Source of the DNA: Phycisphaerae bacterium
GTDB lineage: Bacteria; Planctomycetota; Phycisphaerae; Phycisphaerales; SM1A02
DNA: 34,213 bases
Reading direction: 5' to 3'
Assembly: GCA_018656645.1 (NCBI GenBank)
Contig: JABHZL010000077.1
Location: 1-34,213 of the forward strand
The translations under genes were made by a program, and so were the position numbers. The notes beneath the pieces were generated by a model. The model was not told where the DNA came from and did no database searches. It saw only the letters and a list, made by a program, of their open reading frames with translations. Shown piece by piece: positions 3,000 to 5,075 of this stretch. Position 1 is the stretch's first letter. The number at the start of each line of letters is the position of its first letter.

Positions 3000-3986
3000 C
3001 TATTTCTTAGGGCCTTCGCCGCGTGTAAACAATGCGGAGATTGACATGTGGTGGTGAATTCTGTGGATCGCTTCGCCAAGATAGCGAGCCACTGAGAGAA
3101 CATTTAGTTTGTCGCCAAGACCATCGAGACGATCGTCGGGGAGGATCGTGTCGGTGATGACAACTTCGGTAATTGGTGATTGGTTGATGCGTTCGACGGC
3201 AGGGCCGACACAAACGCCATGGGTAGCTGCTGCAATTATTTTTGTTGCGCCGTGTTCAGTGACAAGCTTTGCTGCTTCGCAAATTGTGCCAGCTGTTGAA
3301 ATCATATCGTCGACCATCAGGACGACTTTTCCTTCGACATTACCAATCAATCGTTTTGATACAACTTCGCTTCCTGAATCACGTCGTTTATCGACAATTG
3401 CAAGTTTCGCATCGAGTAAGCCCGCGTACATGTTTGCAACTTTAACGTTGCCAACGTCTGGAGAAACGATCACCATGTTGTCGCCTTGCATATCGTCTTG
3501 GGTTGCGAAGTGATCGCAGAAAACTTTTGTTGCGGTGAGGTGATCTACAGGAATATCAAAGAAACCTTGAATTTGTGCTGCGTGTAAGTCCATGCAAAGG
3601 ACTCTGTCGGCACCAGCGGCAGTAATGAGATTTGCAACAAGTTTGGCAGTAATTGGAACGCGACCTTCATCTTTTCGGTCCTGTCTTGCATAACCAAAAT
3701 AAGGGATGACGGCTGTGATTTGCCCAGCAGAAGCTCTGCGGAGCGTATCAATCCAGATCAGTAGTTCCATGAGCGTTTCATTGACTGGCATGGAAGTTGA
3801 TTGCACGATGAAGCAATCTCGACCACGAACATCTTCGTCAATTTTCACGATGATTTCGCCGTCAGGAAATCTCTCAACCGTTGCTGATGCAATCGGAAGT
3901 TCTAAGTGTTTACACATCGCTTCTGCAAGATGGGCACCGCCTGTTGCGGAAAAAATCTTCATTTGTTTGTGGTCATCGTGGCTCAT
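3000..3986 (-). CDS. prs: Ribose-phosphate pyrophosphokinase (PRPP synthetase)
   Basis: The enzyme transfers pyrophosphate from ATP to ribose 5-phosphate to give PRPP, the precursor for purine, pyrimidine, NAD, His and Trp synthesis. The 328-residue sequence has FPDGE at about 40-44, the ATP-binding YFGYARQDRK at about 96-105, VPITAK, the metal and ribose-binding MDLHAAQIQGFF, the catalytic-loop segment AIVDKRRD, and the PRPP loop MVDDMISTAGT. Length and motif order match class I enzymes. Its start overlaps the stop of the upstream GlmU-like gene in an ATGA, so the two nucleotide-sugar/nucleotide enzymes are probably translationally coupled. An N-terminal extension of about 8 residues is harmless. 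Confidence 0.96.
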   Translation of the reverse strand: MSHDDHKQMKIFSATGGAHLAEAMCKHLELPIASATVERFPDGEIIVKIDEDVRGRDCFIVQSTSMPVNETLMELLIWIDTLRRASAGQITAVIPYFGYARQDRKDEGRVPITAKLVANLITAAGADRVLCMDLHAAQIQGFFDIPVDHLTATKVFCDHFATQDDMQGDNMVIVSPDVGNVKVANMYAGLLDAKLAIVDKRRDSGSEVVSKRLIGNVEGKVVLMVDDMISTAGTICEAAKLVTEHGATKIIAAATHGVCVGPAVERINQSPITEVVITDTILPDDRLDGLGDKLNVLSVARYLGEAIHRIHHHMSISALFTRGEGPKK

Positions 3987-4759
3987 GATGTAGACTCCAG
4001 AGTTGTGTCGAGTCGTGCTTGGAGCATGGCTTCGACTTCTGCAAGTTGCTGTGGGGTATTTATCGAAAGAATATCTTCTGGTGGTACTGCGTTGACGATT
4101 TCTACTTTTTCTCCTCGAGCGAGCATCATTGCTGGCACTTCAGTTAAGTAGTACTCGTTACTGACAGGATTTTTTTCAAGATTATCAAGGCACGACCAAA
4201 GCGATGCAGCGTTGAAGATTGCATAGCTTGGATATACCTCATGAATGTCGAGTTGTTCTGGTGTAGCATTTTTATGTTCTACGATCGCAGAGAATCTGTC
4301 GTTGGTATCGCGAACAATCCGTCCGTATCCAGTTGGATCAGGAATGGTTGAAGTTGCAAGTGTTGCTGATGCTTGCGTTTCTTTTTGTTTTTCTACCATC
4401 TGTGTAATGGTCTGGGCGCGAATAAGTGGACCGTCGCCGCCGAGAATCAGGATATCGCCTTCAAAGTTCGCGAGTGTTTCTCTACAAACGTCTACTGCGT
4501 GACCTGTCCCAAGTTGTGGTTCTTGCAAAACGAATTCACAGTTTGGTATCTGCTTCTTTACTTCATCTGCGCCGTGCCCAACGACGAGAAGCGTTCTCTC
4601 AACACCAGCTTCGACGACTGCATCAACGACCCATTGCACCATTGGTTTCTGAGAAACAGGGTGCAGAACCTTTGGCAGATCACTGTTCATGCGAGTGCCT
4701 TTTCCAGCTGCGAGAATGATCGCTGCAAGTGGTGTTTGATTGTTCGTTTCTATAGTCAT
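3983..4759 (-). CDS. glmU: GlmU-like N-acetylglucosamine-1-phosphate uridylyltransferase, single-domain
   Basis: This is a sugar-nucleotidyltransferase that probably makes UDP-GlcNAc from UTP and GlcNAc-1-phosphate for peptidoglycan. Motifs are the signature LAAGKGTRMNSDLPKVLH near residue 17, the metal-site loop GGDGPL, YGRIVRD, VEHKNA and NEYYLTEVPAMM, all as in the GlmU N-terminal half. The protein stops at 258 residues, just after the linker helix. The left-handed beta-helix acetyltransferase half of classical GlmU (about 450 residues) is therefore absent, and acetylation must be done by another protein. It starts 13 nt after the tRNA-Gln gene and overlaps prs by 4 nt. Another NTP-sugar transferase specificity is possible but less likely. 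Confidence 0.85.
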   Translation of the reverse strand: MTIETNNQTPLAAIILAAGKGTRMNSDLPKVLHPVSQKPMVQWVVDAVVEAGVERTLLVVGHGADEVKKQIPNCEFVLQEPQLGTGHAVDVCRETLANFEGDILILGGDGPLIRAQTITQMVEKQKETQASATLATSTIPDPTGYGRIVRDTNDRFSAIVEHKNATPEQLDIHEVYPSYAIFNAASLWSCLDNLEKNPVSNEYYLTEVPAMMLARGEKVEIVNAVPPEDILSINTPQQLAEVEAMLQARLDTTLESTS

Positions 4760-4772
4760 CTCTGTAAGTAAA

Positions 4773-4844
4773 CTGGCCCGCCAAGACTTGAACTTGGAAT
4801 GCCTGGATCAAAACCAGGTGTGTTACCGATTACACCACGGGCCA
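4773..4844 (-). tRNA. tRNA-Gln (anticodon UUG)
   Basis: The minus strand folds into a 72-nt cloverleaf. The acceptor stem is TGGCCCG paired with CGGGCCA, with discriminator G at 4773. The anticodon stem is CCTGG/CCAGG with loop TTTTGAT, so the anticodon is TTG (complement of 4809-4811). The T-arm contains GTTCAAGTC. The 3' CCA is not encoded; the bases after the discriminator are TTT. It lies 13 nt upstream of the GlmU-like start codon and downstream of a GC-rich leader, so it is probably excised from a joint tRNA-mRNA transcript. Confidence 0.95.
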
Positions 4845-5060
4845 AATGTTGAGATACGAAGTGCTGTGCACAACGCAGCGCTGTCCTCCAGCCGATCATA
4901 AATTGATCGACGCGTCAAAAATCGCGGAGGGTGCTTGCTGGGTACCAAGGCACATCCGCGGCGAATTCTCTCCGAGGCTCGAGCATCAATCGCCGCGACG
5001 ATGCCCAGTGCGGCGCCAGATATCCGATCTGTCACCGACGGCCCCATTCTGGGGAGAAGG
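4845..5060 (-). ncRNA. Candidate structured leader or small RNA upstream of tRNA-Gln
   Basis: This gene-free stretch is visibly richer in GC than its surroundings and full of complementary segments. On the minus strand, CGCGGCGA/TCGCCGCG (4957-4964 with 4990-4997) makes a perfect 8-bp stem, extended by GGCATC against GATGTGCC. CGATCA/TGATCG (4893-4898 with 4904-4909) makes a 6-bp hairpin enclosed by CCTCC/GGAGG (4885-4889 with 4926-4930). Near the 5' end are CCCC-AGAAT-GGGG (5042-5054) and CAGAT/ATCTG (5017-5031). An extended -10 promoter lies just upstream. I found no hallmarks of RNase P RNA, SRP RNA, tmRNA, 5S rRNA or known riboswitches. It may be a 5' leader removed by RNase P, or a stable sRNA. 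Confidence 0.35.
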
Positions 5061-5066
5061 AGGGGG

Positions 5067-5075
5067 ATTATAGCA
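5067..5075 (-). promoter_or_regulatory. Extended -10 promoter for the tRNA-Gln/glmU operon
   Basis: The minus strand reads TGCTATAAT, a perfect TGn plus TATAAT extended -10 element, so transcription should start near 5060. No good -35 hexamer is seen at 17 nt spacing, which fits an extended -10 promoter. It would drive the structured leader, the tRNA and the downstream translation operon. Confidence 0.6.

Follow-up and report, generated by a model that had tools for sequence, protein, structure and literature searches.

A predicted pseudoknotted RNA family upstream of tRNA-Gln(UUG) in the class Phycisphaerae

Background

T-box leaders bind tRNA and are located upstream of synthetase or amino-acid genes, and the put and EAR elements are processive antitermination leaders, which act in cis from the 5' end of a transcript without a local expression platform. 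Small RNAs are also released from tRNA precursors, as in the spacer-derived sponges of E. coli, where the spacers concerned are short. We know of no structured RNA family that is defined by its position before a tRNA gene. A planctomycete precedent for a candidate structured RNA is the Rhodopirellula-1 motif, which is tabulated for Proteobacteria and Planctomycetes with no Rfam number (PMC2864571).

The leader RNA described here is connected to a tRNA, as T-box leaders are, but has no match to the Rfam T-box model. With orphan riboswitch candidates and the cis-regulatory leaders of Rfam it shares a pseudoknotted RNA that directly follows a promoter-like site and heads an operon, with mutually exclusive pairings possible; it differs from them in having no Rfam match, in preceding a tRNA gene, and in the lack of a visible conserved terminator. 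The likeness to put and EAR, proposed below, is cis action from the 5' end without a local platform, whereas the leader again has no Rfam match. Like the E. coli sponges, it would be made together with a tRNA and be separable by processing, but the domain that it carries upstream of the tRNA is covarying and pseudoknotted. Judged by comparison of sequences, the leader is a new family of predicted structured RNA that no Rfam 15 family accepts, though it may yet prove to be of a known biochemical kind.

Location and predicted parts of the leader

The window, which is the whole stretch of DNA that was analyzed (34,213 nucleotides), belongs to a genome assembly of 2.0 Mb in 137 contigs, in which a DNA search found the leader once. 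ARAGORN placed a tRNA-Gln(TTG) gene at 4772-4845 on the minus strand. The leader lies on the same strand at approximately 5060-4846, ahead of the tRNA at 4845-4772; it is approximately 215 nt long, with a presumed start and a 3' end one base short of the tRNA. The first-pass annotation had described an extended -10 element followed by a leader running into tRNA-Gln, and this arrangement was recovered, with TGCTATAAT at 5075-5067 and the tRNA beginning at 4845 on the minus strand. A -35-like ATGACC is located 20 nt upstream of this -10, with poor spacing, and transcription is expected to start near 5060. The predicted parts, all on the minus strand, are as follows.

5067-5075, minus: extended -10 promoter-like element, TGCTATAAT, read from the sequence; promoter-like sites head the core in 36 of 81 Phycisphaerales loci
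4846-5060, minus: whole predicted structured leader RNA, approximately 215 nt, presumed start; homologues in genus, order, and class
4967-5057, minus: predicted helix P1, 5057-5051 with 4973-4967; both-side changes in 4 of 7 pairs (12 sequences), 80.5% of cells paired
4974-5045, minus: predicted helix P2, 5045-5041 with 4978-4974; 98.3% of cells paired, both-side changes in 1 of 5 pairs
5011-5037, minus: predicted hairpin P3 with a GUGAC / GGCGC base, 5037-5027 with 5021-5011; both-side changes in 6 of 10 pairs
4980-5007, minus: predicted hairpin P4, 5007-5000 with 4987-4980, whose loop holds segment A; both-side changes in 6 of 8 pairs
4992-4998, minus: segment A, UCGCGGC, in the P4 loop, putative 5' side of the pseudoknot, from comparison
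4956-4962, minus: segment B, GCCGCGG, able to pair with A or C, found in Phycisphaerales; from neighboring-pair counts in 81 loci
4922-4927, minus: segment C, CCGCGA, whose counterpart is predicted to pair with A in sister families; from the motif count in 81 loci and A:C covariation
4846-4921, minus: 3' domain of variable hairpins and a GGAGG segment, alignable within the genus as far as the tRNA; from the genus alignment
4772-4845, minus: tRNA-Gln(UUG); ARAGORN and Rfam match
3983-4759, minus: glmU-like gene, 12 bases past the tRNA; open reading frame, putative name, following the first-pass annotation
3000-3986, minus: prs-like gene (ribose-phosphate pyrophosphokinase); open reading frame, putative name, from sequence and gene order

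The genes beyond the prs-like gene are, by sequence and order, putatively rplY, pth, rpsF, ssb, and rplI. The glmU-like protein of the window (3983-4759) has 258 amino acids, approximately half the usual length, and is perhaps the uridylyltransferase part only; the corresponding open frames of four sister-family genomes have 319-436. Two open reading frames overlap the leader, one of 111 amino acids on the minus strand and one of 75 on the plus strand. Both were rejected as coding, since 75 of the 87 gap runs (end gaps included) in an alignment of ten same-genus sequences were not multiples of three, which agrees with the original description of the stretch as non-coding.

Folding and covariation

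When folded as a single sequence, the minus strand was not significantly better than its shuffles (z -1.36, with 24 of 200 shuffles as good), and the plus strand gave z -1.82, with 7 of 200 as good. The stems seen in the window alone are therefore no evidence of structure, and comparison with relatives was needed. The nested stems reported in the first-pass annotation are present in the sequence.

The loci of relatives share a common plan, in which P1 and P2 are stacked, P3 and P4 form hairpins, and three GC-rich segments are placed in the P4 loop (A), right after P1 (B), and further downstream (C). Across 12 Phycisphaerales seed sequences, 91.6% of cells were paired versus 81.2% after shuffling, and the covariation score was 0.391 versus 0.183, a value reached by none of 500 shuffles. 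Sliding the partner strands lowered pairing to 52.5% or less, and P1 was the weakest helix. A set of 51 sister-family sequences gave 97.4% of cells paired versus 87.0% shuffled and a score of 0.455 versus 0.250, again reached by 0 of 500 shuffles, with pairing at or below 51.3% in every slid register. Both-side changes occurred in 21 of its 27 pairs, including five of the six pseudoknot pairs, and across all four helices a total of 197 cells carried such changes versus 54.0 in shuffles, where cells count sequences and not evolutionary events. The sister alignment was fitted to P1, P2, and P4, and the pseudoknot was not used in the fit. A combined alignment of Phycisphaerales and the sister group aligned poorly and was set aside. 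Covarying helices across diverged homologues are strong comparative evidence that the leader is a structured RNA, and conservation of the stems in relatives, which had been named beforehand as a check, was found in both the 12 seeds and the 51 sister sequences.

Pseudoknot and segments A, B, and C

In the 51 sister sequences the predicted A:C helix had 97.7% of its cells paired, with both-side changes in five of six pairs. Examples of its variants are UCGCAG:CUGCGA, UCACGG:CCGUGA, ACGCGG:CCGCGU, UUGCGG:CCGCAA, and GCACGG:CCGUGC, and one locus (L332) carried a swap of the two sides, CCGCGA:UCGCGG.

In Phycisphaerales both B (GCCGCGG) and C are available, B being able to form pairs with either A or C, though not fully with both. 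CCGCG or CCGCA was present downstream of B in 80 of 81 loci, and within 118 nt in 99% versus 45% of shuffles. The A:B pairing gains support because two pairs adjoining its invariant core exceed shuffles: A+5:B-1 was found in 44 of 81 loci versus 32.1 (8 of 2000 shuffles) and A+6:B-2 in 51 of 81 versus 40.6 (9 of 2000). The helix would end at A+7:B-3, since that pair was rarer than in shuffles (20 of 81 versus 32.0). For A:C outside the invariant core there was a trend only, with 39 of 64 versus 34.0 (P 0.054), or 34 versus 29.5 when Watson-Crick pairs alone were counted (P 0.074), 17 of the 81 rows having been left out of this test. A generic best-complement test gave little signal (5.88 versus 5.59 shuffled and 5.62 with the A segments of other loci). 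For B:C beyond the invariant core, seven positions were considered; one, a bulged position, stood at 38 of 2000 shuffles and the others were not above shuffles. Mutually exclusive A:B and B:C pairings could serve as a switch in Phycisphaerales.

Distribution among genomes

In a DNA search of 61 genomes, the first 120 bases of the leader recurred beside tRNA-Gln in several same-genus genomes as well as in genomes from other genera of the family. Covariance model R1 matched 118 of the 251 genomes searched in the order, each of them once; 88 are in the family of the window (its own genome counted) and 30 in other families of the order; this search, like all those of more than 40 genomes, used stricter filters with at most 14 candidates scored per genome, and misses are not proof of absence. 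No R1 match was found in four listed genomes of the window's own family. Model R2, built from 81 sequences, matched 12 of 343 genomes in a phylum sample and, in a class sample, 37 of 297, all within the order. Confinement of the RNA to the order, as the R2 phylum search suggested, was rejected: the model was too narrow, and reading the sequence around glmU in other families of the class revealed a shorter relative of the RNA upstream of tRNA-Gln.

A pattern search matched 17 of the 297 genomes; ten of these matches were the RNA and the other seven span 27-31 nt, the one of them that was read (L281) having no tRNA in its vicinity. Six of the ten pattern-found sequences were used to build model R3, which matched 58 of 297 genomes at E values up to 0.05, in families f7, f8, f9, f110, f112, f114, and f115, with one match in f5 (G048). 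The last (G048:C80, E 0.017) was dismissed as probably chance, since R2 places the copy of that genome at C59, before tRNA-Gln. Eight of the 58 matches (G463, G753, G675, G764, G798, G794, G048, and G690) were not among the loci fetched with flanks, G463 being seen through locus L288. The families reached by this model are referred to here as sister families, which we take to be the Sedimentisphaerales.

Diverged copies were found in some genomes of the order with filters off, at E values of 0.065 to 0.72 (L251-L253, L256), or by eye. In genome G045 (locus L262) the leader RNA was not seen and no second copy was found, with the limit that a diverged copy could be missed; tRNA-Gln precedes glmU there, with TTGACA/TAGACT, read by eye, approximately 40 nt ahead of the tRNA. 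This genome seems to have lost the RNA and offers a natural deletion for comparison.

A loose pattern scan of named genomes returned at least 116 stretches, of which R1 matched 21, every one in planctomycete records: 19 of 80 stretches, and L115 and L122 among the other 36. At E 0.01 R1 had no match in the planctomycete records L051 and L068 (both with tRNA-Gln), L119, and L126. As a check of specificity, there was no match in the 91 non-planctomycete stretches among those scanned. A collection of phages was also searched; it gave no match, and a phage origin was set aside. By these homology searches, the predicted RNA is present in much of the class Phycisphaerae.

Linkage to tRNA-Gln and to the genes behind it

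The tRNA-Gln(UUG) gene followed on the same strand in all 60 Phycisphaerales loci that were fetched (60 of the 118 matching genomes), in all 50 fetched sister-family loci (30 of 30 and 20 of 20; 50 of the 58 matches), and in 21 of 21 scanned loci of named planctomycetes, a set that overlaps with the others. A glmU homologue followed the tRNA in 85 of 88 Phycisphaerales loci, a set in which 81 had a model match and four genomes were counted twice; two of the other three loci end within 100 bases past the tRNA. Neighbors other than tRNA-Gln change, PBP2 being found upstream in 16 of the 88.

Among the 50 sister loci, prs came directly after tRNA-Gln in 13 and after glmU in 26, and was beyond the fetched stretch or not found in 11. 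In L013 prs likewise directly follows tRNA-Gln, without glmU and with the RNA present, and G052 has the RNA, tRNA-Gln, and prs with no glmU between. Since the RNA stays where glmU is missing (the 13 sister loci, L013, and G052), tRNA-Gln is its constant partner, with prs wherever that gene is visible. The same loci weaken glmU as the regulated partner, and with it the amino-sugar sensing that had been suggested in the first-pass annotation. In G041 (L296, L297) glmU and prs are present without tRNA-Gln and without the RNA; this genome has tRNA-Gln(CUG) at another place, with no model match before it.

Promoter-like sites, spacer, and 3' region

Of 81 Phycisphaerales loci, 36 have the pattern TTGA[CAT]-N16-19-TAnnnT at the core start, against 0.25 expected, whereas none of the 81 spacers between core and tRNA contains it (0.48 expected). 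In the sister set it was found at the core start in 19 of 50 loci (1.17 expected) and in 8 of 48 spacers (2.72 expected); all expectations are from mononucleotide shuffles. Promoter-like matches at the core start, with none in the spacers, suggest a transcript common to the RNA and tRNA-Gln, in Phycisphaerales at least. In some loci of the sister families the tRNA may have a start of its own.

Between the core model and the tRNA lies a spacer of 51-349 nt (median 145). No conserved expression platform was found: spacer length varies, and 3 of the 81 spacers contain TTTTT. A few sister genomes (L302, L308) have, between the RNA and tRNA-Gln, a hairpin and then a U-run that look terminator-like by eye. 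Leaders of the genus are alignable up to the tRNA and have predicted hairpins, one of which adjoins it. AGGAG or GGAGG lies shortly before the tRNA (within 70 nt) in 18 of 21 f2-like loci (L204, L205, L208-L226) versus 3.2 in shuffles, these loci having been picked after the motif was seen; the overall count was 32 of 81 loci versus 8.4 expected, and the window has GGAGG at 4889-4885.

Comparison with known RNA families

A scan of the window against Rfam 15 matched the tRNA alone. With E up to 10, the leader gave chance-level hits only, namely Acido-1 (13.7 bits of 50, E 4.5) and TtnuCD25 (13.1 bits of 85, E 4.7), and the leaders of 13 relatives' loci (seven at E up to 5 and six at E up to 2) gave no hit. 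T-box was not hit in the all-family scans of window, leader, and relatives' loci. The Rfam comparison had been proposed beforehand as a check, and no family matched the leader above chance; together with the strong covariation in relatives, this bears out the original designation as an uncharacterized structured RNA before tRNA-Gln.

Identity with a known housekeeping RNA was rejected, as the leader matches neither 6S, SRP, tmRNA, nor RNase P RNA. The 6S model (RF00013) matched at other places in 3 of 21 genomes, with one match above the cut-off (G041:C99:18602-18786), in a genome where the leader RNA was not found; a second, below the cut-off (G043:C57:40018-40198), is in a genome that also carries the leader. 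The exclusion of 6S thus rests on the missing match and not on a clear second copy, because the sole 6S above cut-off lies in G041. SRP RNA (RF00169) was found at other places in 20 of the 21 genomes, 14 above the cut-off, with none in the window's assembly; tmRNA (RF00023) was above the cut-off in 18 of 21, the window's genome having its own at G000:C32; and RNase P RNA (RF00010) was found at other places in 17 of 21, with none in G000 (the window's assembly), G008, G011, and G038. Since G004, whose leader is the most similar one, has both SRP and RNase P RNA, their lack in the window's assembly is likely an assembly gap. No report naming the RNA was found among the titles and abstract openings of the open-licence literature searched.

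Discussion

Our best guess, which we consider about evenly balanced between right and wrong, is that the RNA is a cis-acting leader of the tRNA-Gln operon. In much of Phycisphaerae the primary transcript of tRNA-Gln(UUG) would have this RNA as its 5' part. Sequence comparison shows the order to be the promoter-like site, a core with P1, P2, P3, P4, and the pseudoknot, a variable spacer, tRNA-Gln, usually glmU, and prs. The pseudoknot joins the P4 loop (A) to a downstream strand, which is C in the sister families, while Phycisphaerales have both B and C available. The core would be transcribed, fold once made, and act in cis on its own transcript, in the simplest case by determining how much RNA polymerase continues into the untranslated tRNA and the following genes, through antitermination or gated elongation; the leader would afterwards be removed by RNase P cleavage at the tRNA. 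Cis action is favored because the RNA is linked to one tRNA gene in every fetched locus. Also counted in its favor are the covariation, the single match in each matching genome, the promoter-like matches at the core start, the retention of the RNA with tRNA-Gln and prs where glmU is missing, and the TTGACA/TAGACT close to the tRNA in G045, where the RNA is not seen. Counted against it are the failure to find a conserved expression platform, the promoter-like matches in 8 of 48 sister spacers, the weak A:C signal in Phycisphaerales, and G045 without the RNA.

That no conserved expression platform was found favors either antitermination or a free RNA, and the latter is the main rival. The RNA would then be a stable, trans-acting small RNA made in one precursor with tRNA-Gln, with a 3' end formed by RNase P and trimmed towards the core, and it would work elsewhere, probably with a protein. 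This we regard as a serious possibility, somewhat less probable than cis action. The promoter-like site and conserved fold at the transcript start, the variable spacer, the single match in each matching genome, and the promoter-like sites that some sister genomes have ahead of the tRNA all speak for it. Against it, the RNA was never away from tRNA-Gln in 110 fetched loci, though other neighbors change (PBP2 being a case), and G045 shows neither the RNA nor, within the limit given above, a second copy. An aid to the folding or processing of pre-tRNA-Gln, or a protection of the transcript's 5' end, in either case without regulation, would account for the fixed place before one tRNA and for the predicted hairpin adjoining it in the genus, but the length of the spacer between core and tRNA is free and a covarying loop pseudoknot appears to exceed the need, which makes this reading improbable. 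That the leader is a diverged member of the 6S, SRP, tmRNA, RNase P RNA, T-box, or riboswitch families is very improbable indeed. Its length range is similar, and as 6S, which has matches in some families of the order, went undetected in all 13 genomes searched from the window's genus, no second copy speaks against a 6S-like role there; but the Rfam hits of the leader are at chance level, with none in the relatives, and SRP, tmRNA, and RNase P RNA lie at other places in genomes that carry the leader RNA, a separate 6S copy being weakly supported.

A more specific form of the cis-acting leader, which we put forward tentatively and think rather unlikely, is a switch class heading the tRNA-Gln/prs operon, in which the pseudoknot (A:C or A:B) would sense either a protein or a signal reflecting the supply of glutamine or PRPP, and would program read-through of the untranslated tRNA gene into the genes behind it. 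If this were true, it would be, to our knowledge, the first RNA regulator dedicated to a tRNA gene.

Conclusions

A covarying RNA with a predicted pseudoknot, common to many families of the class, stands before one tRNA gene in all loci fetched and is without a match in Rfam 15, and models R1-R3 delimit the exact region for probing. If the RNA acts in trans, a poorly studied bacterial class would have an unknown RNA. In the case of cis action, a dedicated RNA would control a tRNA gene, and it would become possible to test whether the decoding of glutamine is linked to PRPP synthesis.
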